A stretch of DNA of 64,000 nt from Mycobacterium saskatchewanense (GTDB lineage Bacteria; Actinomycetota; Actinomycetes; Mycobacteriales; Mycobacteriaceae), in the NCBI RefSeq assembly GCF_010729105.1, contig NZ_AP022573.1, positions 1,984,001 to 2,048,000 of the forward strand, read 5' to 3'. The notes beneath the pieces were generated by a model, which made no database searches, was not told the DNA's origin, and saw only the letters and a list, made by a program, of their open reading frames with translations. This document shows positions 30,702 to 51,784 of the stretch, piece after piece (the stretch's first letter is position 1; each line of letters starts with the position of its first letter). Both the position numbers and the translations under genes were made by a program.

Positions 30702-31721
30702 ATGTCCCTCGTTGCGACACCGCAATTAGCGACCCACGCGAAGTCCATCCGCCGCCTCGGGCGGGAAGCGCGAAAAGTATGTCACCGCAGTCGCCGTCGA
30801 CTACCGATGTTGCCGTTGTGCGCCGCCGCCATCACGGTGCTGAGCTGTGCGGTGGTGCCGCCGGCCGCATCGGCCGACGGTGGATGCATTCCCAACGACA
30901 TGGCCGGGCTGGTACCGCGTAACGCTCGACCCGGCGACAACGTTTGCGTCCCGAAGGCGATCGCCGACACCGTACAGAAGGAAAACGCGTCCGCGGCAAA
31001 GGGTGTGGGCTATGTGCCCGGCGGCGGCGCCTACGGACCGAAGACCTGTACCTCGGGTTTGGTGTGGCGCGAAGCATTTGACGGTGACGGGGTCTGCGTG
31101 GACCCTGGGCGGCGGCAACAAACCTGGCAGGAGAATGCCGATGCCGGTGTCGGCAACACCGGCGGTCTCAAGCCGGAGGCCGGCTTCAACCCCGGCGGTG
31201 CCCCGGCGGCCAAGGGTAGCGGTGGCCCCGATCCTGCTCTGCTCGCGGCGGTCAACGACGCCAGGATGAACCCCGGCAAGTACCCGCCGCACACCACAGA
31301 TCCCAACACGGGCAAGCCATGGGACACCTCCGGCGCCGCAACGAAGGCCTGCGGGAAGCCTTTCGCCGATTCCGGGGCCTTGGACAACACGGCTGCGACG
31401 CACAACGGCTTCATCGCCACGATGGACCAAAATACGGTGAACAAATTTCCCAACATGCACAGGACCGCGAGCGGCGGCCTCGAAACGGATCAGGGCGGAC
31501 CCATCACGCAAGCCGGATACTCGTCTACTGGAGAGATTGTTGCCGACGGCTTCACCTCCGAAGCGACTGCGCTGCAGTTCTGGATGCAAGATGACGGCGG
31601 CGCCAACAACTGGGGTCACCGCAACCTGATCCTGAACTGTAACCTCACGGACGCCGGCGCAGCGCACTTCGCAGGGGGTCCTTTAGGACATTATTGGACC
31701 GTTGACATGGGCTCCCACTGA
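30702..31721 (+). CDS. Exported CVWR-repeat and CAP/SCP-domain protein
   Basis: The 339-residue protein starts at an ATG with GAGAGGAG upstream and has a long N-terminal region before the signal hydrophobic core (LPLCAAAITVLSCAVVPPAA). Two CVWR-type units follow (the first degenerate, GLVPRNARPGDNVCVPKAIA; the second CTSGLVWREAFDGDGVCVDP). The last ~150 residues form a CAP (SCP/PR-1) domain with LLAAVNDARMNPGKY, HNGFIA, GEIVADGF and WGHRNLILN. CAP proteins are secreted and bind sterols or act as effectors. Its promoter is ATAGGG copy 4. Confidence 0.78.
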   Translation: MSLVATPQLATHAKSIRRLGREARKVCHRSRRRLPMLPLCAAAITVLSCAVVPPAASADGGCIPNDMAGLVPRNARPGDNVCVPKAIADTVQKENASAAKGVGYVPGGGAYGPKTCTSGLVWREAFDGDGVCVDPGRRQQTWQENADAGVGNTGGLKPEAGFNPGGAPAAKGSGGPDPALLAAVNDARMNPGKYPPHTTDPNTGKPWDTSGAATKACGKPFADSGALDNTAATHNGFIATMDQNTVNKFPNMHRTASGGLETDQGGPITQAGYSSTGEIVADGFTSEATALQFWMQDDGGANNWGHRNLILNCNLTDAGAAHFAGGPLGHYWTVDMGSH

Positions 31722-31768
31722 AGCACACACCACGTTTGCCGAATGCACACGTCCTGAAGGAGGGCCCT

Positions 31769-32341
31769 GTGCCGCAACATATCTCGGCAACCTCGCCGCG
31801 CACACCGGTAGGCTTGGCGCGAGGTTCGGTCGCATTGCTCTCCCTCGCGGCGTTGTGGTGCGTCACGTCCGCCTGCGGATCGAGTGGCACCTCGGTCACC
31901 GCCGGCAGTCCTGGCGCGTCGCAGTCCGCGGCCACTACCGCGCCAGGTGGCGCCAAGCGCATCGACGCCTGCTCGATGCTCTCACCGCAAGACATTTCGC
32001 CACTCCTCGGCGTCTCCGTGCCCGGAGTGTCGACAGGAAAGGCTGCCGACCAGGCCGATTGCACGTGGACGAATACCGCGACCGAGGAATCGGTGTCGCT
32101 AACGATCAGCAATCCCGGCACCGCGCTGCACAACAAGCTTCCGGCCCCCGACTCCGGTTTCCCCGATCCCGGGACGCCGGGGCCGGACGGCATGCGCTAC
32201 CTGGGAGGTGGCTCAGTCGAGTTCGCGGCCGGCGACCGCATCAACACCGTCCAAGTCGCCGTGCTCCGGATGTCCGCGGACCAGGCCAATGCTGCAGCCG
32301 TCAACCTGGCCCGCAAGATCGCGCCGATGGTCCCTCGCTGA
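31769..32341 (+). CDS. Lipoprotein, DUF3558-like
   Basis: The 190-residue protein starts at a GTG with AAGGAGGG upstream. Its signal peptide ends in a lipobox, VTSAC|GSSG. The mature part has CSMLSPQDISPLLG and DCTWTNTATEESVSL, the Cys-Trp pattern of DUF3558-type mycobacterial lipoproteins. It lies 47 bp after the CAP gene and may be co-transcribed. It is likely anchored in the outer face of the membrane. Confidence 0.75.
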   Translation: MPQHISATSPRTPVGLARGSVALLSLAALWCVTSACGSSGTSVTAGSPGASQSAATTAPGGAKRIDACSMLSPQDISPLLGVSVPGVSTGKAADQADCTWTNTATEESVSLTISNPGTALHNKLPAPDSGFPDPGTPGPDGMRYLGGGSVEFAAGDRINTVQVAVLRMSADQANAAAVNLARKIAPMVPR

Positions 32342-32538
32342 TCGCTGACCAGTCGCATTGGGTGCGCGCATTCTCGCTATGCACGCATGGCCGGCAACCG
32401 CTAAGCTCCGAGCGGGGAACTGCCCCACTCACCGCCGGAGACTGGTTGCGCTATGAACATGTTCGGAATCGCGCAGCGTTCCGCCGTCGGAGAGGCACGC
32501 TCGGAACCCGCCTAGAACAGACCCGGAAGCCCCCGCCA

Positions 32539-35313
32539 GTGAGTCCGCTCGTCGGCCGCAGCGAAGAAGTCCGCAGCATCGCCGATTTTCTCAGTGCGGC
32601 GACCGATTCCGCCACGGGGCTGCAAATCGAAGGCGATCCGGGTATCGGGAAGACCACGCTGTGGCTAGACGCCCTGCAACGCGCACGGCACCAGGGCATT
32701 CGCGTCCTGGCCACCCGGGCAAGCGAGGCCGAGTCGGTCCTTGCCTACGCCGGACTGGCCGACCTGCTGACCGAAGTCGATCACGGCGTGTGGGCCGATT
32801 TGCCGCCGCCGCAGCGACGCGCGCTGGCGGCGGCGTTACTCAGCGAGGAGCAAACCGCGGTGCGTGGGGTCGAGCAGCGCGCGGTGGGCGCCGCGTTTCT
32901 GACCGTGCTCGCAAGGCTGGCCGGAGAGTCACCGGTCCTGGTCGCCGTCGACGACATGCAGTGGCTGGACGGCTCCACCCGGGCCGCGGTGGCGTTCGCC
33001 GCCCGACGCCTGTCCGGCCCGGTGGCATGGCTGTGCACCCAACGCAGCGGTACCGCATCGTCATCGGGGAGATGGTTGGACTTGTCGAGGCCGGACGCAG
33101 TTCGCCGAGTCCGGCTGCCGCCGTTATCTGTTCGCGAGCTGCACGATGCGCTCATCGCGCAGCTCGAACATCCCATCCCGCGGCCACGCCTGCTGCGCAT
33201 TCACCAGGTCTCAGGCGGAAATCCTTTTTATGCGCTGGAACTGGCCAGGGAGATCGACCAGGGCGGTGCCGGACTCGACCTTCGACTACCCGACAGCCTT
33301 AGCGAGGTGACGCACTCACGGATCAGCAGGTTCGACGACGACGCCGCTGAGGCGCTACTAGCGATCGCCAGCCTCGCCGATCCGGCGATACGCGTTGTCG
33401 CGCAGGCGATCGACGTCGCGCCACCACGCCTCCTGGAGATGCTCGGCGAAGCCGAGACGCGACAGATCGTCACCATCGATGGCATCAGCATTCGCTTCAC
33501 ACACCCTCTTCTGGCCCACGCGGTCCGCGTGCGGGCGAACCCGCTCGCCCGGCGGACCATCCACCGCCGTCTCGCCCAGGTCGTGACGGAACCCGAGCTG
33601 CGCGCCCGCCACCTAGCGCTGGCCGATCCGGTCGGTGAACCGGAAACACTCAGTGCGCTCGACGCCGGCGCCGACGTCGCCCGCGGGCGCGGCGCACCGG
33701 CGGCCGCCGCGGAGCTGCTGGAAATGGCCATCGGGCTGGGGGGCGCCACCGAAGATCGCCTGACCCTGTTGGCGCAGTGCCTATTCGACGCCGGCGACCC
33801 ACGCCGGGCGCGCGAGGCTCTCGAAACGGCGGCAGAGCTAGCGGCGGGCCCTCGCCGCGCCAAGGCCTTGCAACAGCTGGCGATGGTGCGGCTCTACGAC
33901 GACAGCTTTCTCGAAGCCGCGCAGATTTGTCAGCAGGCAGTGGTCGACTGCGGCGACGACGCGGCGCTGCGGGTGACCGTCATGACCACGTTGGCGTTCG
34001 CGCAACTGAACACCGGCGAGCGGGACGCTGCCCTGGCGACCGCCGAGCAGGCAGTTACCGTTGCGGAGAACACAAACCTTCCCGACGCGCTCTGCCGCGC
34101 GTTGAGCATGCGGGCGATCATGCGGTTCATGAACGGCGAGGGCATCGCCCCATCCGATTTGAATCGGATCGCTGCGTTGGACAGGCTGGACACCGCGATG
34201 CCGGTGTCGCTTCGGCCGAGCGTCCAGACCGCACTGCTGCGGGGCTGGACCGGCGAGTTCGCGGCGGCCCGCAACGTGCTTGCACAGCTTGCGCAGCGGT
34301 GCGAAGCCGTCGGTGAAGAGGGCGAGCTCATCTTCCTGGAGTTCCAACTCGTGCTGTTCGACACCTGGCTGTGCGAACTGGGGCGGGCCGCGGAAGTCGC
34401 CGACGAGGCCCAACAGCGGGCCCGCCAGCTCGGCGGCGGCGCGGCACTGTTCATCGCGTTGTCGCTCCAAGCCACCGTGGCCGCCTACCAGGGTCGGGTC
34501 GAAGAGGCTCGCCGTCACATCCAGAGTGCCCTCACGGCCGGTGTAGGCAGTGGCTACAACCTCATGCTGTCGTGGGTCATCTCCGTACACGGCTTTCTGG
34601 AACTGTCCCTTGGCGATCACGCCGGGGCGCTTGCCGCTCTCGAACCCTTGCTGCCGATGGTCTACCTCGTGCCGCGCTACACCGAGGCCGTCGGCGCCGG
34701 CTTCGTTCCCGATGCTGCCGAAGCACTGATCAACCTCGGTCGGCTCGATGAGGCCGAACGCCTGGTCGCCACCCTGGAAAGCAATGGGGCGCGACTGGAG
34801 CGCGCGTGGATGTTGGCCGTCGGCACGCGATGCCGGGCCCTGCTGTCGGCAGCGCGCGGCGACGTCGAGGCCGCCGTCACACATGCTCAGGCCGCGCTGG
34901 TCCACCACGATCGTGTTGACATGCCGTTCGAACGCGCACGGACGCTTCTGGTTCTCGGCCGGCTGGAGCGCCGACTGCGTCATTGGCGCGCCGCGGCCGC
35001 TGTGCTGAGCGAGGCCCTGCTGATCTTCGAGAGCGTCGGGACACCACTGTGGGCCGAACAGGCCCGCGCCGACCTGGACCGTGGTACCGCCGGGCGGACC
35101 CGATCCCCCGGTCTGACCCCCAGAGAGCGACGCGTCGCCGAGCTGGCCGCCGCCGGGATGAACAACCACCACATCGCCGCCAAGCTTTTCATCACGCGAA
35201 AGACGGTCGAAGTCAATCTCTCTCGCATCTACCACAAGCTGGGAATCCACTCTCGCATTGAGCTCTATCACGTCATGAACGACGCCGACTCTGAGCCGGC
35301 GGCGCACGAGTAG
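32539..35313 (+). CDS. LuxR-type large ATP-binding regulator 2 (intact)
   Basis: The 924-residue protein has Walker A GDPGIGKTT at about 32-40, a Walker B VAVDDMQWLD near 135-144, a helical TPR-like middle, and a C-terminal LuxR HTH in GLTPRERRVAELAAAGMNNH and FITRKTVEVNLSRIYHKLG. I start it at the GTG at 32539 (CGGAAG upstream); a TTG slightly upstream is possible. It is paralogous to the IS-split regulator 1. LuxR dimers bind short inverted repeats, so the ATAGGG-N5-CCCTAT elements nearby are likely targets; this is inference. Confidence 0.85.
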   Translation: MSPLVGRSEEVRSIADFLSAATDSATGLQIEGDPGIGKTTLWLDALQRARHQGIRVLATRASEAESVLAYAGLADLLTEVDHGVWADLPPPQRRALAAALLSEEQTAVRGVEQRAVGAAFLTVLARLAGESPVLVAVDDMQWLDGSTRAAVAFAARRLSGPVAWLCTQRSGTASSSGRWLDLSRPDAVRRVRLPPLSVRELHDALIAQLEHPIPRPRLLRIHQVSGGNPFYALELAREIDQGGAGLDLRLPDSLSEVTHSRISRFDDDAAEALLAIASLADPAIRVVAQAIDVAPPRLLEMLGEAETRQIVTIDGISIRFTHPLLAHAVRVRANPLARRTIHRRLAQVVTEPELRARHLALADPVGEPETLSALDAGADVARGRGAPAAAAELLEMAIGLGGATEDRLTLLAQCLFDAGDPRRAREALETAAELAAGPRRAKALQQLAMVRLYDDSFLEAAQICQQAVVDCGDDAALRVTVMTTLAFAQLNTGERDAALATAEQAVTVAENTNLPDALCRALSMRAIMRFMNGEGIAPSDLNRIAALDRLDTAMPVSLRPSVQTALLRGWTGEFAAARNVLAQLAQRCEAVGEEGELIFLEFQLVLFDTWLCELGRAAEVADEAQQRARQLGGGAALFIALSLQATVAAYQGRVEEARRHIQSALTAGVGSGYNLMLSWVISVHGFLELSLGDHAGALAALEPLLPMVYLVPRYTEAVGAGFVPDAAEALINLGRLDEAERLVATLESNGARLERAWMLAVGTRCRALLSAARGDVEAAVTHAQAALVHHDRVDMPFERARTLLVLGRLERRLRHWRAAAAVLSEALLIFESVGTPLWAEQARADLDRGTAGRTRSPGLTPRERRVAELAAAGMNNHHIAAKLFITRKTVEVNLSRIYHKLGIHSRIELYHVMNDADSEPAAHE

Positions 35314-37443: not shown

Positions 37444-38595
37444 TTGAACGCATACATCACAGCTACGGGCACTTTCCTTCCCGGCGAACCCGTACCCAAC
37501 GAGGAAATCGAAGACTACATCGGCACGGCGGGGCGCTCGACCAGCGATCTCAAAGCGATCACGCTGGCCAACTGTGGCATCAAGACACGCCACTACGCGA
37601 TCGACAAGAAGCAACAGACGGTTATCTCGAATGCGGCGATGGCGGCCGGCGCCGTTCGCAGCGCCGCGGAGCGCGCGGGGCTGCGGCCAGATGACATCGA
37701 ATTGCTCTGCGCGGCGACCTCATTGCCCGACCTGGTGACGCCGGGCCTGGCCAGCATGATCCACGGTGAGCTGGGCTATGGTCCCCTCGAGATCGCCACC
37801 TCCCACGGTGTGTGCAGTTCGGGGATGATGGCCTTGAAGAACGCCTACCTCCAGGTGGCGATCGGCGAGAAGCGCAACGCGATCAGCGTCGCCAGCGAGT
37901 CCATCTCGCGGTGGCTCAAAGGGTCCCGCTACGCCGAGATGGGGGCCGCTGCCGAGGACGGCTCTTTGCCGCTCGAGGCCGCGTTTCTGCGCTACATGCT
38001 GTCGGACGGCGCCGGCGCCGCGGTGATCGAGGATCGGCCCGCTGCATCGGGTATCAGCTTGCGTATCGACTGGATCTCCCTCAGGTCGTACGCGAACACC
38101 CAAACGGCCTGCATGTTCCTGGGCAGCAAAGAAAGGAATTGCGACAAGACTTGGGTCGACTACCCGACCGCCTCCGAGGCCGCCGCGGACGGCGCGACCG
38201 TGTTGAGGCAAGACTTGTCGATGTTGCCTCACGTGGTCACGATCGGGGTCGACGAGTTTGAGCGCTTGAGTCGGCTCGGCAAGTTCGATCCCTCCACATT
38301 GTCGTGGGTACCCGCTCACTACTCGAGCGAGCGAATGAAAACCCTGGTGCTGAACGAGTTTTCGAGACGGGGTATCGAGGTGGCGTCTCGCCCCGAGATT
38401 TGGTACAGCAATCTGACCAGCGTCGGAAACATCGGCAGCGCGTCAATTTACGTGATCCTCGACGAAATGTTGCAGCAGGGGCTCATCAGAGACGGAGAAA
38501 CGCTGCTGTGCATGGTCCCCGAGTCCGGCCGGTTCGCCATCTCGTTCATGCACCTGACGGCGGTCTCCGGGGCGGCTTCCGAGGATGGCCGATGA
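37444..38595 (+). CDS. Ketosynthase of the KAS III type, DarB-like
   Basis: The 383-residue protein starts at a TTG (37444) with GGAGCAGG upstream. It has the thiolase-fold triad: Cys124 in SHGVCSSGMMA, His292 in WVPAHYSS and Asn329 in GNIGSAS. It is longer than ordinary FabH (about 320) and matches the size of the DarB ketosynthases of dialkylresorcinol synthesis, which condense two acyl thioesters and close a six-membered ring. Its stop overlaps the ATG of the DarA-like gene, the same pairing as darA/darB. It begins the plus-strand biosynthetic operon. Confidence 0.7.
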   Translation: MNAYITATGTFLPGEPVPNEEIEDYIGTAGRSTSDLKAITLANCGIKTRHYAIDKKQQTVISNAAMAAGAVRSAAERAGLRPDDIELLCAATSLPDLVTPGLASMIHGELGYGPLEIATSHGVCSSGMMALKNAYLQVAIGEKRNAISVASESISRWLKGSRYAEMGAAAEDGSLPLEAAFLRYMLSDGAGAAVIEDRPAASGISLRIDWISLRSYANTQTACMFLGSKERNCDKTWVDYPTASEAAADGATVLRQDLSMLPHVVTIGVDEFERLSRLGKFDPSTLSWVPAHYSSERMKTLVLNEFSRRGIEVASRPEIWYSNLTSVGNIGSASIYVILDEMLQQGLIRDGETLLCMVPESGRFAISFMHLTAVSGAASEDGR

Positions 38596-39560
38596 TCGCA
38601 TCGGTCGAGGGAGGCTCCACCACCCAGCGGAGCTACTCCAGGGCCGTCGTGTACTTGTACACGCAGACGGGGCAGCTGCGCGAGGTCACCAAGGCATTGA
38701 CCGATCCCCTGGAGGGCCGTGACTGGAGCGTTCGGTGGGTCGACGTCCAACCGCGCAAAGGGTTCCCGTTTCCGTGGCCGGTTCGGCGATTCTTCGGCGT
38801 ATTCCCGGAAGCGGTCGATCGATCGGCACTCGTCGAACTCGTCGAGCCGAAGGACGGATTCCACACGGCAGCGGACGAATTGGTGATCTTGGCGTACCAG
38901 GTGTGGTACCTGTCGCCGTCGATCCCGATTCGGTCGTTGCTTGCCGCCCACCCCGAGTCAGTGCGAGACCGTGACGTCGTCACGGTCATCGCCTGCCGCA
39001 ACATGTGGTACTCCGCCGCCATCGAGATGTGTCAACTTCTGCGGGCCGCCGGGGCGCGCAGCGTCGAGGTCGTCGCCGCCACGGACACCCGTTCGTCGGC
39101 GACGACACTGGTCACGACGCTGCGTTGGCTGCTGACCGGAAACCGCGAGCCCTTCCTGTGGTTCGGGAGGGCGGGCGTCGGTGCGGATGAACTCGGCAGA
39201 GTCGCCGAGGTGGGTCGCTGCCTTGCCGAGGCGGAGCCACGGCCGTCCGAGATGGCGCCGGTGGTTCCGGCACTGGCCGTCGCCGATATCCTTGCCGGCC
39301 ATGCCTTTCGGCGATGGGGCGCCCTGGCTGACCGGGCCCGCGCACACGGTAAAGCTGCGAGTGCTGCGAGCTTGACCGCATTCGTGCTGGTCTTGTTGGC
39401 AGCCATCGCGTTGGGTCTCCCGCTGGCGGCCACCGCGGAGGTCCTCGGTGGAGCACGGCTGGCGGCCCGCATACGCGGGCTGGTCTACCGCCAGATCCTT
39501 TTTGGGCATACCGCTTTCCGCGGAACAGAACGACCGTTGAGGAGCTTGAGCACGCTATGA
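38592..39560 (+). CDS. DarA-like dialkylresorcinol condensing enzyme
   Basis: The 322-residue protein starts with SRAVVYLYTQTGQLREVTKA, a flavodoxin-like loop, followed by RWVDVQPRKGFPFPWPVRRF and FGVFPEAVD, the pattern I recall for DarA-type enzymes, which convert the DarB product into an aromatic resorcinol. The C-terminal third has one hydrophobic stretch, LTAFVLVLLAAIALGLPLAA. It is coupled to both neighbours by ATGA overlaps. The name rests on remembered motifs and on the DarB-like neighbour, so a homology search should confirm it. Confidence 0.6.
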   Translation: MIASVEGGSTTQRSYSRAVVYLYTQTGQLREVTKALTDPLEGRDWSVRWVDVQPRKGFPFPWPVRRFFGVFPEAVDRSALVELVEPKDGFHTAADELVILAYQVWYLSPSIPIRSLLAAHPESVRDRDVVTVIACRNMWYSAAIEMCQLLRAAGARSVEVVAATDTRSSATTLVTTLRWLLTGNREPFLWFGRAGVGADELGRVAEVGRCLAEAEPRPSEMAPVVPALAVADILAGHAFRRWGALADRARAHGKAASAASLTAFVLVLLAAIALGLPLAATAEVLGGARLAARIRGLVYRQILFGHTAFRGTERPLRSLSTL

Positions 39561-39823
39561 CGATGACCATGAAGACCATCGACCACCAGGAACTCGCCGA
39601 CTGGCTGACCGCGGAGGTCGCCCGGCTCGTCGGGTTACCCGTCGACGCCATCGACGTCGACACGCCGCTTGCCGATTATGGCCTCGACTCGGCCGCCAGC
39701 CTCGCGCTGTGCGCGGACTTGGAGGACGAACTGGGCATCATCGCCGAAACGACGATCGTCTGGGACTACCCGACGGTCGATGGCATCGCGCAACACCTTG
39801 CAGCACTCGGGCGATCGTTGTGA
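39557..39823 (+). CDS. Free-standing acyl carrier protein
   Basis: The 88-residue protein has the phosphopantetheine site Ser45 in DYGLDSAASLALC. It starts at an ATG overlapping the upstream stop and ends in TGA overlapping the GTG of the polyketide synthase. It would take the acyl group from the fatty acyl-AMP ligase or present the nascent chain to the DarB-like enzyme. Confidence 0.88.
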   Translation: MTMTMKTIDHQELADWLTAEVARLVGLPVDAIDVDTPLADYGLDSAASLALCADLEDELGIIAETTIVWDYPTVDGIAQHLAALGRSL

Positions 39824-42765
39824 TACCCATCGCCGTGGTGGGGATCGACTGCCGCTTTCCGGCCGCGCCTGACAAAGACGCGTTCTGGCAGTTGATGCTT
39901 GATGCGACGGTCACCGATACGGAGGTTCCGGCCCAGCGGTGGAATGTCGACGCCTACTATGACCGAGGCGGAGCGCCGGGCACCATGAACACCAGGCGTG
40001 GCCACTTCATCGGCAACGTTGACGCGTTCGACAACCAGTTCTTCGGCGTCGCACCCATTGAAGCGGCTGCGCTCGATCCCCAGCAGCGACTGCTGCTCGA
40101 GACGTCGTGGCGGGCACTCGAGGACGGCGGAATCGATCCACGCTCACTGGCCGGCACGCAGACCGGTGTGTTCGTCGGGATCATGTCCAGCGAGTGGAGC
40201 AGTCTGCAGCTCAACGATTTCGCCGGAGTCACCCCGTTCCGCGGCACCGGCAGCGGCTACTTCATGGCCGCGAACCGGATCTCCTACCATCTGGGGCTGA
40301 CGGGGCCGAGCATGGCGATAGATTCGGCGTGCTCCTCCTCGCTGACCGCGGTTCACCACGGTTGTGCCGCGTTACGGTCGGGCGAAGCTGACCTGGTCAT
40401 CGCCGCGGGTGCCAACCTGATATTGACGCCTTCGCTTTCGATCTTCTATACCCAGGCGGGATTGTCGGCCCCGGACGGCCGGTGCAAGCCGTTTGGGCAA
40501 CACGCCGACGGCATCGGCCGCGGGGAAGGCGTCGGCGCTGTGGTATTGCGCCGGCTTGACGATGCCCTGGCGGCGGGGCAGCCGATCTATGCGATCGTGA
40601 AGAGTTCGGTGGTCAACCACGATGGCCGCAGTAACGGAATCACCGCGCCGAACCGCCACACCCAGGTCGCACTGATGCGGCGAGCGCTCGAACTTGCCGA
40701 AATCGACGCGGCGTCGGTCGACTTCGTCGAAGCGCACGGCACGGGCACGGTCATCGGCGACGCGATCGAGGCCCGGGCGCTCGGTGAAGTGCACCACGCA
40801 CGACGCGCCAATCCCTGCCTTCTGGGCTCGGTGAAGGGAAACATCGGACACACGGAGGGCAGCGCCGGCATCGCATCGTTCATCAAGGCGTGTCTGGCGC
40901 TGCAGCATCGCACGCTGCCACCCACGACGTACGGCGGTGAAGACCACCGCGGGCTGCGGCTCGATGAGCTCGGGCTGCAACTGGCCGACCGCGCACGGGC
41001 TTTGCCCACCGAAGGCGCAATCGGCGCGATCAGCTCCTTCGGCCTCGGCGGCAGCAACGCGCATGTGGTCGTGGAGTCCGCACCCGCACCGGCAGCGCCC
41101 GTCACGGGTCGATACGGAGTCTTGACAATTTCCGCATCTTCGCCGAAGTCCCTGTTGCGCAACATCGCGGCGGTCACTCCCGCGTTGGACTCCCTCGAGC
41201 CCGACCACGTGGCCTCCTGGTGTCGGTCGACCAACGTGGTGAAACGGTCGAATCGGCATCGCATCGCGGTGCACGGTGACCGTGACTCACTGCTGAAATG
41301 CCTCCGCCAGTTCACTGCGGGCGCTCGGCCCGACCTGGCATCGTCGGCCCCGGCGCGCAAAACTCCGGCCAGCTTCGGACTCCTCTTCTCAGGCCAGGGA
41401 ACCCAGTACCCCGGCATGACACTGCCGCTCTACGAGGCCAATCCGGTGTACCGGAGCATTCTCGACGCGGCCGCGGCTGCGGTGAACCAGCATCTGCGCG
41501 CTGATGTGCTCGGGGCGCTTTTCGGGAGCCAGTCCAGCTTGGCCGACGCCAGCCTGGCACAGCCGGCCTTGTTCATCGTTTCCTATGCACTGGCAAGCAC
41601 GCTGCGGGAGAGCGGGATCGAGATCGCCTTCGGGATAGGTCACAGCCTCGGTGAGATCACCGCGGCCTGCCTTGCCGGCGTGCTCACCCTCGAGGATGCG
41701 ACCAGGTTGGTCGCCGTACGCGGGCGGATGATGGAGTCATTGCCGCACGACGGTGCGATGTTGTCGGCAGAACTGAGCCTCGCGGAGGCCGAAGCGGTTC
41801 TCGAAGCGGAGTCGGCCTGTGCCGTCGCGGCTGTCAACGGAGAGCACGCGTTGACGATTTCGGGGCCAATCGATGCCGTGGAACGAACTCACACGTTGAT
41901 CAGGCAGCAAGGCCGGAAGGCGGTGCGCTTGAATGTGTCACAGGCATTTCACTCGCCAAGCATGAGCCCTATCGTCGAGGATTTCCGCCGCGAACTGCAG
42001 GGGCTCGAGCCCGGAGATGCCGAATTCCCGATCTTCTCGACGGTGCTCGGCAGGCAAGTCGTGGGCCAGGAGATGAATGCCGACTACTGGGCCGAGCAGA
42101 TCCTTGCGCCCGTGCGGTTCTCGGATGCCGTGCGGGCGGCCTTGAGTTGGACAGTTCCCGCGTATTTCGCCGAGGCCGGCCCCAGATCTGTGCTGCTCAG
42201 CCTTGCCAGACAGTCCGAGATGGCCTCGGAGGCGCGCATGCTGGCGTTGTGCAGCGGTCCCGATTCAGGGGGGACCGAGTTGCTCGAAGTTGCTGCGGCA
42301 ACGATGCGCGATGGGTATTCACCCGACCTCGACGCACTCTGCGGGCGCTCGACGGACTTCGCGTTTCGGCTCCCGCCTTACGTCTTCGATGATTCCAACC
42401 GATTCTGGCTCGACCGTCCAACCGTCCACGGCGAGCACATGTCGAACACCCAGACCACCGATGAATCGGCGAACGGCGCGCCGGCATCGTGCTCACCAAC
42501 GGGCGATGTCGTCACAGCCGGAATCGTGGACATGATCGCCGATGTCGGCGGCTACCCAAGCGGCACGCTCGACTTGTCCAAACGACTCGTCGAGGACCTG
42601 GGGTACGACTCTCTGCTCCAACTCCGGCTGCTGGAGCGGCTTCGGACGCAGTACCCGCCACTGAGCGACGTCAACGTCGTCGAAGTTCTGCCCAGCATCG
42701 GCAGCGTCGGCGATCTGGTCGGCTTCATCACGCAACGGCTCAGCCTGAGCGGCGAGACCGGATGA
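39820..42765 (+). CDS. Type I polyketide synthase module: KS-AT-ACP
   Basis: The 981-residue protein starts at a GTG overlapping the ACP stop. The KS (about 1-430) has Cys171 (DSACSSSL), His306 (EAHGTGT) and His344 (NIGHTEG). The AT (about 510-820) has Ser609 (GHSLGE) and His711 in the QAFHSP motif, typical of malonyl rather than methylmalonyl use. The ACP has Ser931 (GYDSLLQL). No reductase, dehydratase or thioesterase domain is present, so it would make a beta-ketoacyl chain, the form a DarB-like enzyme needs. Confidence 0.9.
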   Translation: MIPIAVVGIDCRFPAAPDKDAFWQLMLDATVTDTEVPAQRWNVDAYYDRGGAPGTMNTRRGHFIGNVDAFDNQFFGVAPIEAAALDPQQRLLLETSWRALEDGGIDPRSLAGTQTGVFVGIMSSEWSSLQLNDFAGVTPFRGTGSGYFMAANRISYHLGLTGPSMAIDSACSSSLTAVHHGCAALRSGEADLVIAAGANLILTPSLSIFYTQAGLSAPDGRCKPFGQHADGIGRGEGVGAVVLRRLDDALAAGQPIYAIVKSSVVNHDGRSNGITAPNRHTQVALMRRALELAEIDAASVDFVEAHGTGTVIGDAIEARALGEVHHARRANPCLLGSVKGNIGHTEGSAGIASFIKACLALQHRTLPPTTYGGEDHRGLRLDELGLQLADRARALPTEGAIGAISSFGLGGSNAHVVVESAPAPAAPVTGRYGVLTISASSPKSLLRNIAAVTPALDSLEPDHVASWCRSTNVVKRSNRHRIAVHGDRDSLLKCLRQFTAGARPDLASSAPARKTPASFGLLFSGQGTQYPGMTLPLYEANPVYRSILDAAAAAVNQHLRADVLGALFGSQSSLADASLAQPALFIVSYALASTLRESGIEIAFGIGHSLGEITAACLAGVLTLEDATRLVAVRGRMMESLPHDGAMLSAELSLAEAEAVLEAESACAVAAVNGEHALTISGPIDAVERTHTLIRQQGRKAVRLNVSQAFHSPSMSPIVEDFRRELQGLEPGDAEFPIFSTVLGRQVVGQEMNADYWAEQILAPVRFSDAVRAALSWTVPAYFAEAGPRSVLLSLARQSEMASEARMLALCSGPDSGGTELLEVAAATMRDGYSPDLDALCGRSTDFAFRLPPYVFDDSNRFWLDRPTVHGEHMSNTQTTDESANGAPASCSPTGDVVTAGIVDMIADVGGYPSGTLDLSKRLVEDLGYDSLLQLRLLERLRTQYPPLSDVNVVEVLPSIGSVGDLVGFITQRLSLSGETG

Positions 42766-42793
42766 TCACTGCACGTGAAAGGATAAATGTCTC

Positions 42794-44440
42794 GTGAGTG
42801 CGCTCACCCGCCAAATAAACGTCACCGCGGCATCGTCTTCGCGGGGTCTCACCGCGGGAACGGTGGCGGCCCCAATCCGGCTGGGTTGGAGCGAAGTTCA
42901 GCACCGGGCAGCGCGGATAGCCGCCGGCCTCGGCCGCCTGGGCGTTGAGCCCGAGGGGTCGATTGCGGTACTGGCCAGCGACGCGGCCGATGTTGCCTCG
43001 CTCGCCCAGGCAGCCTGGTTCATGCGGGCGGCATTGACCATGCTTCAGCAACCGACACCCCGCGCCGACCTAACCGTGTGGCTGGCCGACACCGTACGCG
43101 CAATCCGCCTGGTCAGAGCGGATGTGGTGGTTGTCGGCGACTCCTTCCTCGCGGCGCTGGATCAACTGGCCAGCCACGGCGTGAAGGTTTGCACCGTCGA
43201 ATCCCTGCGCACTGCTACACCCGGCGCGCTGAAACCCGACGACGCCCAAGACGAAGACATCGCGCTAAGGCAGTTGACCTCCGGCTCCACGGGCACGCCG
43301 AAGGCCGTAGAGATCACTCACGCCAACCTTGCCGCAAACGTCGTCGCGCTGTTCGATGGGATGAATGTGGACACCGACACCGACGTGATCGTGTCCTGGT
43401 TGCCACTCTCCCACGACATGGGCATGGTCGGCTTCGTCTGCGCGCCAATGCAAATGGGCGTCGAGACCGTTGTCGTCCCGCCGCAAGAGTTTCTCGCCCG
43501 ACCGATCGTCTGGGCTGAGCTGATCAGCCGGCATCGCGCCACCATCACCTCGGGCCCCAGTTTCGGCTATGGCGTTCTGTCTCGTGCCTTGCGCCGCGTC
43601 AAAGAACCAGCGGTTATCGATCTCTCGTCACTGCGGATCGCGATAATCGGCGCGGAGCCTGTCGACCACCGTCAACTGACAGAATTCGCCGATGCGGGAG
43701 CGCCATTCGGGCTGCGCCCGACGGCATCGGTACCCGCCTACGGACTCGCGGAAGCGACCTTGGTGGTGTCTTTGGCGGTGAGCCGCGACCGGCCGATCGT
43801 GGATGCGATAGCGCGGCGTGCGGCCAGCGATCACCACCGGGCGCAACCCGTCCGCGATGACACCGAAGATGCGCAACACGTTGTCTGTCTCGGTCCACCC
43901 GTCACCGGCACCAGCGTTCGCATCACCCGCGGCGGGATGCCGTTGGCGCCAAGACAAATCGGCACCATCGAGATCAGTGGAGCTTCCGTCGCCAAGAACT
44001 ACCTCACATCGGACGGTGTCACCCCTCTCGCGTCCGCGGCCGGGTGGTTCGATACCGGGGATCTCGGATACCTCGACGAGCAGGGAAGAGTTTATGTTTG
44101 CGGCCGCGCCAAAGAGCTCATCGTCATAGCCGGCAGGAACCTCTATCCGCACGACATCGAGCGGGCGGCCGAGGGTGTCGCGGGCGTGCGGACGGGGTGC
44201 GTTATCGCGCTGCGCGTCGATGAGGAGGAGGGCCCGGAGGGTTTTGCGGTACTAGCCGAAGTCCGCGACGTCGACGACGAGGCCACGCGGGTGCGGATCA
44301 GCCGCGACATCACGGCCCGGGTGAGCCAACACGTCGGACACCTTCCGCGCCAGGTCCGCCTTTTTCCGGCAGGCACTTTGCCGAAGACGTCGTCGGGCAA
44401 GCTTCGGCGAAATAGCGCTCGGGAACTCCTGCTGCGATGA
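42794..44440 (+). CDS. Fatty acyl-AMP ligase (FAAL-type)
   Basis: The 548-residue protein has the adenylation loop QLTSGSTGTPK (about 160-170), WLPLSHDMGMVG (a FAAL hallmark), GRAKELIVIAGRNLYPHDIE and the C-terminal Lys536 in PKTSSGK. FAALs load fatty acids as acyl-adenylates onto ACPs or PKSs rather than CoA. It starts at a GTG 28 bp after the PKS and ends the operon. It would supply the starter acyl chain. Confidence 0.85.
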   Translation: MSALTRQINVTAASSSRGLTAGTVAAPIRLGWSEVQHRAARIAAGLGRLGVEPEGSIAVLASDAADVASLAQAAWFMRAALTMLQQPTPRADLTVWLADTVRAIRLVRADVVVVGDSFLAALDQLASHGVKVCTVESLRTATPGALKPDDAQDEDIALRQLTSGSTGTPKAVEITHANLAANVVALFDGMNVDTDTDVIVSWLPLSHDMGMVGFVCAPMQMGVETVVVPPQEFLARPIVWAELISRHRATITSGPSFGYGVLSRALRRVKEPAVIDLSSLRIAIIGAEPVDHRQLTEFADAGAPFGLRPTASVPAYGLAEATLVVSLAVSRDRPIVDAIARRAASDHHRAQPVRDDTEDAQHVVCLGPPVTGTSVRITRGGMPLAPRQIGTIEISGASVAKNYLTSDGVTPLASAAGWFDTGDLGYLDEQGRVYVCGRAKELIVIAGRNLYPHDIERAAEGVAGVRTGCVIALRVDEEEGPEGFAVLAEVRDVDDEATRVRISRDITARVSQHVGHLPRQVRLFPAGTLPKTSSGKLRRNSARELLLR

Positions 44441-44456
44441 TGCCGCGGGCTACCTG

Positions 44457-44510
44457 AGCCCGGCGGCCCCGCGAAGCGCTATCAGCCCGGCGGCCCCGCG
44501 AAGCGCTATC
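44457..44510. repeat. Perfect 27-bp tandem repeat at the convergent operon ends
   Basis: Two identical 27-bp units (44457-44483 and 44484-44510) lie in the 65-bp gap between the ligase stop (44440) and the methyltransferase end (44506), and the second runs into the methyltransferase stop. They are GC-rich with a GGCGGCCCC core. They may form a shared transcription stop or be recent slippage. Confidence 0.85.
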
Positions 44511-45588
44511 GCGCTCGGGCTTCGACCAGACTCATGGGCGAGATGGTGGGAACCACGCGGGTCATGTGGAACCCCGCGGCGTCAAGCAAGCTCCGGTACT
44601 CCGCAGCGGTGCGTTCACGGCCGGCCTGCATTACCAGCATCTCGAGGTCAGACCAGTGCCCGACATGGTCGCGATTGTCGTCCGGGACCACGTATTCGAT
44701 CAACACGATCGTCGCTCCCGTGGTTGCCGCCGAACGGACGTTCTGCAGGATGCGGACCGCCTCGGCGTCCGGCCAGTCATGAACGATCTGCTTGAGCATG
44801 TAAAGGTTCCCGCCCGGGGGAACGCTGTCGAAGAACGACCCCTCCGCGACTTGCACGCGATCAGCGACGTGACGCGCGCGCAGCAGGGGCTCGACGTCGG
44901 CGACGACGGCCGGCAGGTCATAGAGGACCCCTTTCGACGCGGGTGCGGCATTCAGTACCGCCGCCAGGTTTTGGCCAGTCCCACCCCCGACGTCGACGAT
45001 GGTCGGATATGCGTCGAACGGGTAGGCGGCGACCAGAGATCCCACCACCATCTCGGTGATGTCGGCCATACATTTGCCGAACACCTCGACGCGCTCCGGG
45101 TCTTGATTCAAGAACTCGAACCCGCTGGTGCCGTACAGTACTGGGACAATCCCCTCCCCGGATCTGATCGCATCCGCCAGGTGACTCCATATCTCGCGAT
45201 GTTCTTGTGAACCGAACATGCGGGCCGGACCGGCCGCCGAGAACCGTGCGTCCGGACGCAAGGTATCGGCCAGTGCGTTCAGCTCATAACGGCCGTCTTT
45301 GCGCTGCCGAAAAATTCCGCGGCCTATGAGCGCACGGATCAAGCGGCGCAGCGCATCGGCGTCGGCCTCGACTCGAGACGCCAAGTCCTCGAGGGGCAGG
45401 GGGCCGTCGGCGAGCGCATCGGCGATACCGAGTTGCACGGCCGCGGTGATCGCCTGTGCGGTCCAACCTTCCAGAAGCATCTCCAGTATCGCCACGTGCG
45501 GCGGGGCCGTTCGCTGATGAGCGCGCGACAGCGCGCCCCGTGCGCGTTCGACGACGCGAATGACTTTTGGTGAGATTTGCACGGTCAT
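44506..45588 (-). CDS. SAM-dependent O-methyltransferase (COMT type)
   Basis: The 360-residue protein has an N-terminal dimerisation helix bundle (LEMLLEGWTAQAITAAVQLG), the SAM motif VDVGGGTGQN near 180-190, and the COMT-type catalytic His in LKQIVHDWPD. This is the plan of plant and bacterial phenol O-methyltransferases. It probably methylates a hydroxyl on the aromatic product. Its start at 45588 is 72 bp after the end of the VOC gene. Confidence 0.88.
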   Translation of the reverse strand: MTVQISPKVIRVVERARGALSRAHQRTAPPHVAILEMLLEGWTAQAITAAVQLGIADALADGPLPLEDLASRVEADADALRRLIRALIGRGIFRQRKDGRYELNALADTLRPDARFSAAGPARMFGSQEHREIWSHLADAIRSGEGIVPVLYGTSGFEFLNQDPERVEVFGKCMADITEMVVGSLVAAYPFDAYPTIVDVGGGTGQNLAAVLNAAPASKGVLYDLPAVVADVEPLLRARHVADRVQVAEGSFFDSVPPGGNLYMLKQIVHDWPDAEAVRILQNVRSAATTGATIVLIEYVVPDDNRDHVGHWSDLEMLVMQAGRERTAAEYRSLLDAAGFHMTRVVPTISPMSLVEARAR

Positions 45589-45659
45589 GGGCTGGGTGTA
45601 GCCTTTCTTCGGCGGGTTTGCACCCGGGTCGATCGTCGGCGATCGGATGTCTCGGTCCG

Positions 45660-46118
45660 CTAGCGGGATGGCTCGGTGTCGGCCAGCACCGTGTCGGGGT
45701 CCAGTTCGTCGGGCCACTCGGCCAGGTTCACATCGGGGCCAGCGTTGCCCGAGGGAAGGCTCAACGCGACATCGGTACCGTTGGGGTCGCGGAACCACAG
45801 CGCCGTGACCGCGCCCTGGCGGGTCGCTCGGTAGGGGTGAGAATTGTGCCCCGCCAACCGATCGACCGTTGCACGGATGTCGTCTGGCTCGTCGAAAGTC
45901 AAGTTGATCGCGGTGACGCCGCTCGCCTCGGGATGGTAGTCAAATGCAGTCTGGGAGCGCTCGATGACGACTCCGAGGCGTGCGGCGGTGACAGTGGTCA
46001 GCTTCGCGGTGACCGGATGCGGTTGCACACCAAGCAAAGCGGACCACCAGGCCGCCATCTCCGCCGGCCGGTAGCTGAGCAGTCGTAGCTCGACGAGCGG
46101 TGCGCCAATGGAATTCAC
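45660..46118 (-). CDS. VOC-fold protein of the tailoring operon
   Basis: The 152-residue protein starts at a GTG with GGGAGG upstream, overlapping the monooxygenase stop (GTGA). It has LVELRLLSYRPAEMAAWWSALL and a second half TALWFRDPNGTDVALSL, where a metal Glu would be expected but Asp/Val are seen. It may bind or modify the product. A self-resistance role, as for VOC bleomycin-binding proteins, is also possible. Confidence 0.7.
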   Translation of the reverse strand: MNSIGAPLVELRLLSYRPAEMAAWWSALLGVQPHPVTAKLTTVTAARLGVVIERSQTAFDYHPEASGVTAINLTFDEPDDIRATVDRLAGHNSHPYRATRQGAVTALWFRDPNGTDVALSLPSGNAGPDVNLAEWPDELDPDTVLADTEPSR

Positions 46119-47896
46119 GAGATAGACCTCCCAACACCGCACGGTGCGCTGACCGCGCTCAGTGCCTGCCGTATCTGCGTCGCGTCGCGCCTGTCGGAGT
46201 GCAGTACAGCGGCGATATGGCCGTCCGGCCGCACGATGAGGCCGTCCGCGTCCGCCGCTGCACCGGTGCGGAACACGTGATGCGCCGCCTCATCGACGGT
46301 GCCGACCGCGATGGGGAGCGTCGCGGCGGTGTGCGTCCACCGGGCCCGGGATCGGGGCGTGGCGAGCAGTGTCAGCCGATCATGGCTGATCAGATCGAGA
46401 GTGGATACGCGCCTGCCGCGGTCTTCGACCCAGCCGTGCGGAAGCCGTCCCCCGGCCCAGGCCAACGGCGTGTAGAACTCGGGATCGCAATGCCTCGTGG
46501 GTATCCCGTCGGCCACCACCGCGCCGCTCGAATAGATCACCCCGAGGTCGCTCCCCCAGCTGCGGTAGTGGCGGCCTTGTCGGCTGATCGCCTCTGCTGC
46601 CCTGCGGCGTAGATATCCGCCGACCTTTCCCGGGGACGCCGCCAGGCCAAAGGTGCGATACGCCTGCGCGGAAAGGCCTCGGACCAGCGTGCGCACGGGC
46701 CGCCGTGGCACCCATTCGGGAAGTGCCGCAATGATTCGCGGCAGCAGACTACCGACTCGGCGTGGCATGCCCAGAGCGGCAACCACGTCGAGCAGACCCT
46801 CGACGTTGGCCACGGAGTGGTCGGTGGCACTGCGTCCCACCGGCCGGCGCTCTTGTTCGTAGGTGTCCAGAAGTCCGTTGCCGGCCCGACCGGTGAGCAC
46901 CCACGCGATTTTCCACGCGAGGTTGTGCACGTCGGCGATGCCGGTGTTCAAACCCAGGCCGCCGGTGGGCGGAAACCGGTGCGCCGCATCTCCGGCCAAG
47001 AACGCCCGACCTACTCGGTAGTTGGTCGCGACTTGTGCGTTCATCGCCCACGATTTGATCGAGTGGATGTCGACGCGGACGCTGGAATCGCCGATGGCAT
47101 CGAGGATGTGGTCTCGGCAGACCGCCGCCGGAAAGTCCTCCAGCGATTCGGCCGGTGGAAAGTAAGGGATCTGGAACACGAGATCGTGCGGTGGGCGGTG
47201 GACTATCAAGGCCCCCACGCCCTTGCCGCTGTGCGTCCACATGACCGGCCCACGGCGGTTGCGGCGAAACTTCTCCAGATCGGCGGAGAAGTGCACGCTG
47301 ATCATGTGTTGAAGGGTGGGCCCCTTCATCGCGACACGGAGCGCTCTTCGCACCGGACTGGCCGCGCCGTCGGCGGCGATAAGGTACTGCCCCAGAATCA
47401 TTCGGCTTCCGCCGGCCGTGTCACCGATTGTGACCGCCACCTTGTCGGGTCCGTCCGTGTGGGTGACGTAGCGCCAGCCGCTGCGCAAGTCGATGTGAGC
47501 GTTGTCGCGCAGGCGTTGCCAGAGCAGGGTTTCCAGGAGGCTTTGCGGCAAATGGGCGCTGCGCGTTGGACTGATCGCCTCGATGGCCTCCACCTGCCTG
47601 TCGGGCAGCTCGGCCACCGGCACCCGGCCGAGCTCCGGCCCGGCCAACGTAGTGCAGTACGCGATGCAGCGCAGCTCGTAGGCTTGGGCACTCAAGGCAC
47701 GCAGCTCACGGTCCAGCCCGATCTCGCGCCATATCTCCATTGACCGAGTCGAGAGCACGTGTGCGGCCGGGTGCGTCTGCGGGCGCTCACGCGGCTCCAC
47801 GACAACGCAGCTGACACCGCGGGCGGCCAGCAGCAATGCTGCCGTCGCGCCCACCGGTCCGGCGCCGACGATCACCACGTCACAGGTGTCAGCCAC
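46115..47896 (-). CDS. FAD-dependent monooxygenase, class A (aromatic hydroxylase-like)
   Basis: The 593-residue protein has the FAD motif VVIVGAGPVGATAALLL, the second motif IAADGAASPVRR and the third GDAAHRFPPTGGLGLNTGIA. It has a C-terminal thioredoxin-like extension, as in phenol hydroxylases. It would hydroxylate an aromatic ring or oxidise it toward a quinone. It is co-transcribed with the VOC gene and the methyltransferase. The 148 bp between it and the DoxX-like gene show no gene. Confidence 0.88.
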   Translation of the reverse strand: MADTCDVVIVGAGPVGATAALLLAARGVSCVVVEPRERPQTHPAAHVLSTRSMEIWREIGLDRELRALSAQAYELRCIAYCTTLAGPELGRVPVAELPDRQVEAIEAISPTRSAHLPQSLLETLLWQRLRDNAHIDLRSGWRYVTHTDGPDKVAVTIGDTAGGSRMILGQYLIAADGAASPVRRALRVAMKGPTLQHMISVHFSADLEKFRRNRRGPVMWTHSGKGVGALIVHRPPHDLVFQIPYFPPAESLEDFPAAVCRDHILDAIGDSSVRVDIHSIKSWAMNAQVATNYRVGRAFLAGDAAHRFPPTGGLGLNTGIADVHNLAWKIAWVLTGRAGNGLLDTYEQERRPVGRSATDHSVANVEGLLDVVAALGMPRRVGSLLPRIIAALPEWVPRRPVRTLVRGLSAQAYRTFGLAASPGKVGGYLRRRAAEAISRQGRHYRSWGSDLGVIYSSGAVVADGIPTRHCDPEFYTPLAWAGGRLPHGWVEDRGRRVSTLDLISHDRLTLLATPRSRARWTHTAATLPIAVGTVDEAAHHVFRTGAAADADGLIVRPDGHIAAVLHSDRRDATQIRQALSAVSAPCGVGRSIS

Positions 47897-48044
47897 GGTG
47901 GCTGCGGTCCCCGGACCGCGGTCCGCTGCGGCGTCCGCCGGAGTCGGGCCACAACAGGAGGTGGCATTGCGTCATACGGCTTACACGATGCCGGGCGGCG
48001 GAGCCCTCAACCGAATGACAGTGATGTACATCACAACACGCCAC

Positions 48045-48419
48045 TCACCGACGCCCCCATACGGACATCACGGCCAAAGCCAACAGCACGACGTTCATCG
48101 CGATCATCACCGGTTCACGTCGACGCGCGTGTATCACCGCCGCCCCCAGGGAAACGACGATCAGACCCGCCACGCCAGCCGCCAGCGCCCATCCCTCCGG
48201 GATGTTCAGGAACACCGGAAGAGTCATCCCCAGCGCCGCCAGGACCTCGGTCAACCCCACCAATCTCACTGTTCCCAAGGTGAAGTCGCCGACCCAACTC
48301 GCGCCGCGCAATACAAGCTCGTTCTTCGAGAGCACCAGTTTCGTCGCACCCGCGGCCGCGAACGCCGCAGCCAGCCCCATGCTGAAGACCCACAACGCGA
48401 CGTGCATCGGGCCGATCAC
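48045..48419 (-). CDS. DoxX-like membrane protein
   Basis: The 124-residue protein has four hydrophobic segments (for example LWVFSMGLAAAFAAAGATKL and WALAAGVAGLIVVSLGAAVI) and the DoxX-family ending MNVVLLALAVMSVWGRR. Some DoxX proteins work with quinone or thiol redox systems. An internal ATG at 48407 is an alternative start. It lies upstream of the tailoring operon on the same strand; the 259 bp before it hold no gene I can support. Confidence 0.75.
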   Translation of the reverse strand: MIGPMHVALWVFSMGLAAAFAAAGATKLVLSKNELVLRGASWVGDFTLGTVRLVGLTEVLAALGMTLPVFLNIPEGWALAAGVAGLIVVSLGAAVIHARRREPVMIAMNVVLLALAVMSVWGRR

Positions 48420-50953: not shown

Positions 50954-51784
50954 TCAGCGTTCCTTCCCGAAGAAGAAGTCCTGCGCATTGTTGTACAGAT
51001 AGTTGTCGAGCACGTCGGCGGGCAGATCCAGGGCGCGGGCCTCGGGCAGCACCCGCTGCATGCGCAGCACGGGCCAGTCTGACGCGTAGATGACCTTTTC
51101 GGGGCCGCGCGTCCGCATGTAATGCAGCAGGCTTTCCGGCAGCCGCTTGGGTGACCAGGCCGACGTCATCAGGCGCAGGTTGGCGTACTTGAGCAGCAAC
51201 CGGATGGCCACGTCCCACCACGGGTCGGCCCCGTGGATCATGCAAAGCTTCAGCTCGGGGAACCGCACGCACACCCTGTCCAGGTGCATCGGGTGTTGGA
51301 CCTCCCCGGGGATCGGCGGTCCGGGGATGCCCGTGTTGAGACAGAGGGGCAGGCGCAGCTCGGCGCACTTGGCGTAGAGCGGGTAATAGACCGCGTCGCT
51401 GGGCGGGTATTGGCCATCACCCCAGAAGCTCGGCCCCACTACCGCATACGCGACCGGAAGATCGCCCGCGGCGGCGGTCAATTCCCGCAGGGTTGGTACC
51501 GGGCGCAGCAGATTCAGCCCGCCCATGGCCAGTGCGAACCGGTCCGGCCTGGCTTCGACGAACTTGCGCGCGGTTGTCGACGGCTTACTGAGCGAATCCA
51601 TCAGGATCGCCTTCCGCACGCCGTGGTCGTCCATCTCGTCGAGCAGATCGGACAGGTCGACCGGGGCGAACATCGATTCGGGGCCGTTGAAGTAGTCGTC
51701 GCGGACCTTGAGCATCCAGGAGGGCTGGGATTCGGTTTCACCGAAGTGCACGTTGACCAGGCAGTCGATCGCCCCGGCAGTCAT
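50954..51784 (-). CDS. Amidohydrolase family 2
   Basis: The 276-residue protein starts MTAGAIDCLVNVHFGETESQ and has CMIHGADPWWDVA and VIYASDWPVLRMQRV, the metal and Asp motifs of COG2159 TIM barrels. It is smaller than the paralogues at 2854, 4017 and 53409. The ATG overlaps the synthetase stop (ATGA). It is a likely hydrolase or decarboxylase step on a CoA or acid intermediate. Confidence 0.82.
   Translation of the reverse strand: MTAGAIDCLVNVHFGETESQPSWMLKVRDDYFNGPESMFAPVDLSDLLDEMDDHGVRKAILMDSLSKPSTTARKFVEARPDRFALAMGGLNLLRPVPTLRELTAAAGDLPVAYAVVGPSFWGDGQYPPSDAVYYPLYAKCAELRLPLCLNTGIPGPPIPGEVQHPMHLDRVCVRFPELKLCMIHGADPWWDVAIRLLLKYANLRLMTSAWSPKRLPESLLHYMRTRGPEKVIYASDWPVLRMQRVLPEARALDLPADVLDNYLYNNAQDFFFGKER

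Follow-up and report, generated by a model that had tools for sequence, protein, structure and literature searches.

What would a mycobacterium build with a long ketoacyl-acyl carrier protein synthase III (KAS III), a DarA-like protein and a small polyketide assembly line encoded side by side? The question is raised by a 64,000-nucleotide stretch of Mycobacterium saskatchewanense DNA (the window; bases 1,984,001–2,048,000 of a 6,008,916-base genome on one contig), where an initial annotation had proposed a DarA/DarB-like cluster for a phenolic lipid or quinone. We called genes in the window from open reading frames, Pfam and NCBIfam profile scans and comparison with Protein Data Bank (PDB) sequences, and recovered every gene named in that annotation where it had been placed. 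The locus is a real, conserved biosynthetic unit, running from 37444 to 47896 of the window (about 10.5 kb). The reading we favour, and consider rather likely, is that a StlD/DarB-like route, supplied by a polyketide module within the cluster, leads to a lipid of the 2,5-dialkylresorcinol type, which is then hydroxylated and probably O-methylated.

The ketosynthase and its DarA-like partner

The unit opens with a 383-residue KAS III of the StlD/DarB kind (37444–38595, plus strand, TTG start). It scores 361.5 bits (E 5.2e-108) against the StlD/DarB family model NF005293 and 318.8 bits against the DarB model NF053539, below the respective cut-offs of 450 and 550; a Bacteroidales control clears both, at 537.3 and 551.9 bits. 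Two general FabH models score the mycobacterial protein at just 89 and 71 bits, and its best PDB relative is StlD (5gk0, E 1.2e-71, full length), with the best FabH at E 3.4e-14. The Cys-His-Asn triad (Cys124, His292, Asn329) and Glu152, the SE glutamate, line up with StlD and are kept in 27/27 aligned rows. A tree of 30 rows gathers the actinobacterial KAS IIIs into one clade (21 rows, support 96/99). Next to it stands a group made up of StlD, the Bacteroidales DarB and two proteins from Bacteroidales plasmids; this group is joined by L068, a more remote protein from a different genus within the same family (support 87/47), and the two FabH-like rows and a single distant Streptomyces KAS III sit far off. 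Because the bootstrap has yet to converge completely and the tree contains long branches, we interpret the coarse split alone. Family scores, PDB matches and tree thus place the enzyme with StlD/DarB, not with FabH; because it falls below both curated cut-offs, we class it as a divergent sister clade of StlD/DarB rather than DarB proper. Ketosynthases of this class join a β-ketoacyl and an α,β-unsaturated acyl thioester into a 2,5-dialkylcyclohexane-1,3-dione (PMC4578411), and we propose the same dione-forming activity, from β-ketoacyl and enoyl thioesters, for the mycobacterial enzyme.

The second gene (38592–39560, plus strand, 322 residues) encodes a protein without any match among Pfam, NCBIfam or PDB-sequence families. 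Among 8000 candidates scored we found 500 homologues, one of them labelled 'Dialkylrecorsinol conde...', and its nearest named relatives come from mycobacteria. The protein is 30% identical, over most of its length, to the product of a Bacteroidales gene (L017 5722–6639) that adjoins a KAS III passing the curated DarB cut-off, and the two share the motifs YxQTGQL, PFPW and CRNMWY. The relation to DarA on which the initial annotation hung is therefore borne out, through homology to the neighbour of a curated-level DarB. The predicted structure is a good model and, compared by Foldseek, shows a flavodoxin fold followed by a hydrophobic tail of C-terminal helices; the Bacteroidales DarA model shows a flavodoxin fold likewise. 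G-protein-coupled receptor entries in the Foldseek list were read as flavodoxin fusion constructs, as one title says. Fusions of DarA to an acyl carrier protein (ACP; P0100), a KAS III (P0121) and a flavin adenine dinucleotide (FAD) hydroxylase (P0133) in metagenome proteins have garbled linkers, probably from frameshifts, and were not used.

A gene table for Azoarcus names DarB the cyclase and DarA the aromatase (PMC3949708); Chitinophaga pinensis darB plus darA, expressed elsewhere, yields a dialkylresorcinol (PMC3992019), and insertional mutants of P. chlororaphis in darA or darB lose their resorcinol (PMC6403133). For the mycobacterial protein we propose the part of an oxidative aromatase, with which the modelled fold is compatible and no more.

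Genes for proposed polyketide supply and tailoring, and their conservation

Behind the DarA-like gene, all on the plus strand, follow a free ACP (39557–39823, 88 residues; PF00550, 60.5 bits), as the initial annotation had it, a type I polyketide synthase (PKS) module (39820–42765, GTG start as read here) and a probable fatty acyl-AMP ligase (FAAL; 42794–44440). At the three junctions between the first four genes the reading frames share a few bases, and 28 bases separate the PKS from the ligase gene, so 37444–44440 is spaced as in an operon. Pfam resolves the module into ketosynthase (KS, 280 bits), acyltransferase (AT, 177 bits) and ACP (24.1 bits, cut-off 20.8) domains, with no ketoreductase, dehydratase or enoylreductase family among its matches. 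This upholds the KS-AT-ACP architecture without reductases claimed earlier; the further claim of a malonyl-type AT comes from a QAFHS stretch read by eye in the translation, which we take as the mark of a malonyl-type domain. Because no reductive domain matched, a β-ketoacyl thioester would be the natural output, and the module is the proposed maker of that substrate.

For the ligase the evidence divides. In the PDB it comes closest to fatty acyl-AMP ligases (3pbk, 1.1e-65; 3kxw, 5.4e-57), with a 4-coumarate-CoA ligase at 1.1e-26, and after YGLAEATLVVS it carries an extra stretch absent from the ligase at 51781, the one comparison protein. Against this, NCBIfam NF005850 names it a 'long-chain-fatty-acid--CoA ligase' (669.9 bits, cut-off 572). 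The earlier FAAL call is thus favoured by closeness to solved FAALs and by the insertion, and disputed by the NCBIfam name; we regard it as a probable FAAL that would charge an ACP with a fatty acid.

Three genes run convergently to this block on the minus strand. The first, for an O-methyltransferase-fold protein (Methyltransf_2 with a dimerization domain; PF00891, 165.6 bits; PF08100, 56.2 bits), occupies 44506–45588, its start lying probably at 45588 and not at 45798 as annotated before. A VOC (glyoxalase-fold) gene at 45660–46142 (PF00903, 22.5 bits, cut-off 20.6), which overlaps the start of the long methyltransferase reading frame, had been overlooked and was spotted through its presence in two related loci (L012 and L010). 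The third, for an FAD aromatic-ring hydroxylase (46115–47896; PF01494, 281.8 bits; PF21274, 47.9 bits), has as nearest solved relatives 2,4-dichlorophenol 6-monooxygenase (4.1e-70) and 2-hydroxybiphenyl 3-monooxygenase (1.6e-66), phenol ortho-hydroxylases that act next to the hydroxyl. The initial gene set otherwise stands for the methyltransferase and monooxygenase. A sequence of about 27 bases (AGCCCGGCGGCCCCGCGAAGCGCTATC) is directly repeated at the convergent ligase/methyltransferase junction (44455–44515).

The DarA-like protein occurs in 15/396 Mycobacterium genomes (E<=1e-15, own genome counted), with strong matches in 5/301 genomes at the level of the family, matches in 3/298 at that of the order and in 2/396 at that of the phylum (with alignment, E<=1e-20); 14 of the 19 family-survey matches were weak (E 5e-4 to 4e-9), had no KAS III within about 1.5 kb and were dropped as another family. 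We compared gene neighbourhoods, in stretches no longer than about 20 kb, for the 14 genus matches outside this genome and for two matches in further genera of the family. A KAS III gene adjoins the DarA gene at 14/14 of the genus loci (L053–L066), and 13/14 keep the same-strand order KAS III, DarA, ACP, KS-AT-ACP, (thioesterase), FAAL; in the fourteenth (G629), KAS III, DarA and an FAD hydroxylase lie in a different setting. Four of these 13 relatives are also loci L009–L012 and were counted once. The methyltransferase is present at 11/13, the monooxygenase at 11/13 (just 35% identical in L063 and L064), the VOC gene at 9/13, a type II thioesterase at 7/13 and an extra upstream ACP at 5/13; in G322 the complete unit is present with all its genes on one strand.

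Beyond the unit, roughly 10 kb on each side of the 13 relatives (less at one contig end) was searched for the window's flanking genes. DoxX, the LuxR regulator, an alpha/beta hydrolase, two acyl-CoA dehydrogenases, an amidohydrolase and the second AMP-ligase were rejected as cluster parts, each at 0/13; one weak ACAD1 stretch occurs in L066, outside the 13. The annotated range of 37444–48419 therefore holds for its core genes and loses its DoxX end (48045–48419). The regulator, a large AAA/TPR/LuxR-type protein of 1203 residues upstream at 31702–35313, is absent at 13/13 relatives.

A proposed pathway to a dialkylresorcinol and its rivals

The gene anatomy fits the chain that the initial annotation laid out, from FAAL through ACP and KS-AT-ACP to a DarB-type condensation and aromatization, and the steps and substrate chains given here are proposed from it. 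The FAAL would charge the free ACP with a fatty acid, and the KS-AT-ACP module would extend the loaded chain once with malonyl to a β-ketoacyl thioester. The KAS III would add this to an α,β-unsaturated acyl thioester in a Michael reaction and close the ring by a Claisen step; from the resulting 2,5-dialkylcyclohexane-1,3-dione the flavodoxin-fold DarA-like protein would take two electrons to leave the resorcinol. The likeliest source of the unsaturated partner, at a guess, is enoyl-ACP from the type II fatty acid synthase. The monooxygenase would then hydroxylate a free ring position, ortho to one hydroxyl and para to the other; since each free position of a 2,5-dialkylresorcinol is so placed, the hydroxylated ring would autoxidize readily to a hydroxy-p-quinone. 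The methyltransferase would cap one hydroxyl, and the product, possibly a quinone, would resemble the compounds that mycobacterial operons with a type III PKS are reported to make (PMC5916927, PMC9927152). The alkylresorcinol product named initially is accordingly backed as to its enzymes, with 2,5-dialkylresorcinol as the expected core and the unsaturated partner not encoded in the unit.

Several points weigh against this pathway. The KAS III fails both curated family cut-offs (NF005293 and NF053539), as do the actinobacterial relatives scored (three, then two). The conserved unit holds no enzyme for the α,β-unsaturated partner, and the acyl-CoA dehydrogenases neighbouring it are found at 0/13 relatives. 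Binding of flavin mononucleotide by the DarA-like protein is putative. Among solved structures the methyltransferase is closest to AlpH, and the list also contains RdmB, which shares the fold yet is a hydroxylase; membership of the fold thus does not imply methylation. Two relatives (G352 and G535) lack the methyltransferase and the monooxygenase in the stretch and have no genome-wide monooxygenase homologue at E<=1e-60; tailoring is therefore not obligatory. Overall the resorcinol route is supported for the enzymes by homology and not for the products, and the product stays putative.

Perhaps, though we would not bet on it, the cluster is a second, convergent mycobacterial polyketide-quinone route, in which a two-chain dialkylresorcinol would become, through monooxygenase and methyltransferase, a methoxy-benzoquinone serving as an alternative electron carrier. 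No type III PKS lies in the window; the genome's four PF00195 matches are at about 476, 494, 612 and 5496 kb. Two of them, at 612 and 5496 kb, lie no more than about 1 kb from a match to the ICMT methyltransferase family, an arrangement that resembles the published polyketide-quinone operon, and both quinone routes could therefore coexist in a single cell.

The same ring chemistry might instead yield an exported phenolic envelope lipid, a hydroxylated or methylated dialkylresorcinol rather than a redox quinone, an option to which we give a minority share of our belief. MmpL proteins export lipids in mycobacteria, and MmpL genes stand beside the block at 5/13 relatives (L057, L059, L061, L064 and L065; counted at 60% or more identity to two query MmpLs, or as those themselves), with one further at only 29%; G352 and G535 hold the block and an MmpL without the monooxygenase. 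Set against this, neither query MmpL matched the window, and 11 of the 13 relatives keep the monooxygenase.

Less probable still, and in our view rather unlikely, is that the KAS III makes another two-chain product, an α-pyrone or a stilbene-like compound, with DarA as some other flavin reductase. StlD itself makes a stilbene, and the mycobacterial enzyme lies under the StlD/DarB cut-offs. PpyS-type ketosynthases do build pyrones from two chains (PMC4578411). The strict coupling of the KAS III to a DarA homologue speaks against this product, as do its nearest solved relative, StlD, and the absence of an aromatic acid supply gene from the conserved unit. We consider it next to impossible that the KAS III is a FabH of the usual kind and that the 38592 protein has nothing to do with DarA: the Pfam ACP_syn_III_C model matched just in part (28.9 bits) and the DarA-like protein has no family match, but the KAS III family scores, PDB matches and tree, and the DarA homology, contradict it.

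Relatives beyond Mycobacterium and known systems

Three Nocardia loci pair a KAS III (67–70% identical) with a DarA-like protein (47–51%), with an ACP beside the KAS III and other PKS genes. The Nocardia DarA-like proteins (L013 9929–11263, L014 and L015) carry a C-terminal extension, which in L013 scores 25.9 bits against Rng_hyd_C (cut-off 27.5) and in L014 has no match to it; this is only a lead. A Streptomyces linear plasmid (NZ_CP108465.1; L078 9715–19275), uncharacterized as far as its annotation goes, reads ACP, StlD/DarB-like KAS III, DarA-like 'hypothetical protein', FAD oxidoreductase, SCP2, FabF, P450, ACP, FabG. It shares with the mycobacterial unit the KAS III (62% identity), the DarA-like protein (45%) and an adjacent FAD hydroxylase, and differs in that a type II-like KS and FabG replace the KS-AT-ACP module and FAAL. 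From the Nocardia and Streptomyces loci, the KAS III and DarA pair, often with a ring hydroxylase, is by gene content an actinobacterial theme, of which the form with KS-AT-ACP and FAAL is the mycobacterial version. Human-associated Prevotella/Bacteroides plasmids (L077 8001–9137, L080 3001–4143) carry a DarB-like KAS III beside a regulator gene; no DarA is named near it in the incomplete plasmid annotation.

The initial annotation held that such systems are known mostly from Gram-negative bacteria, to which relatives in Nocardia and Streptomyces must now be added, and that none had been described in mycobacteria. The latter is nearly right: a literature search covering few subscription papers yielded no study of a mycobacterial DarA/DarB system, the one mention being a sentence on M. 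spongiae (PMC11361433) that names an antiSMASH-predicted 'putative alkylresorcinol locus (F6B93_10605 - F6B93_10760)'.

If our reading is correct, mycobacteria would hold a family of two-chain aromatic lipids that decades of research on their lipids have left unstudied, built by a route so far described in other bacteria, and the known range of DarA/DarB chemistry would widen. DarA would be suggested as a flavin oxidoreductase and not the 'condensing enzyme' of database labels, and, should the product be a quinone, mycobacteria would have a second way of making alternative electron carriers. The unit as a whole is conserved and spans only about 10.5 kb, which makes this directly testable.

With the known DarA/DarB systems (flexirubin, arcuflavin, Pseudomonas HPR and cyanobacterial) the locus shares a StlD/DarB-like KAS III beside a DarA homologue and invariant motifs. 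It differs in its host, in a KAS III under the curated cut-offs, and in adding KS-AT-ACP, ACP, FAAL, hydroxylase, methyltransferase and VOC genes, though FAAL or PKS genes may also occur in the cyanobacterial clusters. With StlD, the Photorhabdus stilbene ketosynthase (5gk0), it has in common a full-length match and the same Cys/His/Asn/Glu pattern, whereas the aromatic-acid starter side of the StlD pathway is without counterpart in the mycobacterial conserved unit. DarA and DarB homologues do occur together in clusters of cyanobacteria (PMC8406957). In mycobacteria themselves, a resorcinol, a methyltransferase and an oxidoreductase make up the recipe for polyketide quinones (PMC5916927, PMC9927152). 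That operon and ours follow the same logic of resorcinol-forming synthase, methyltransferase and flavin oxidoreductase (PMC5916927, PMC9927152, PMC8730385), but the KAS III cluster has Methyltransf_2 in place of ICMT and would join two chains, not one.

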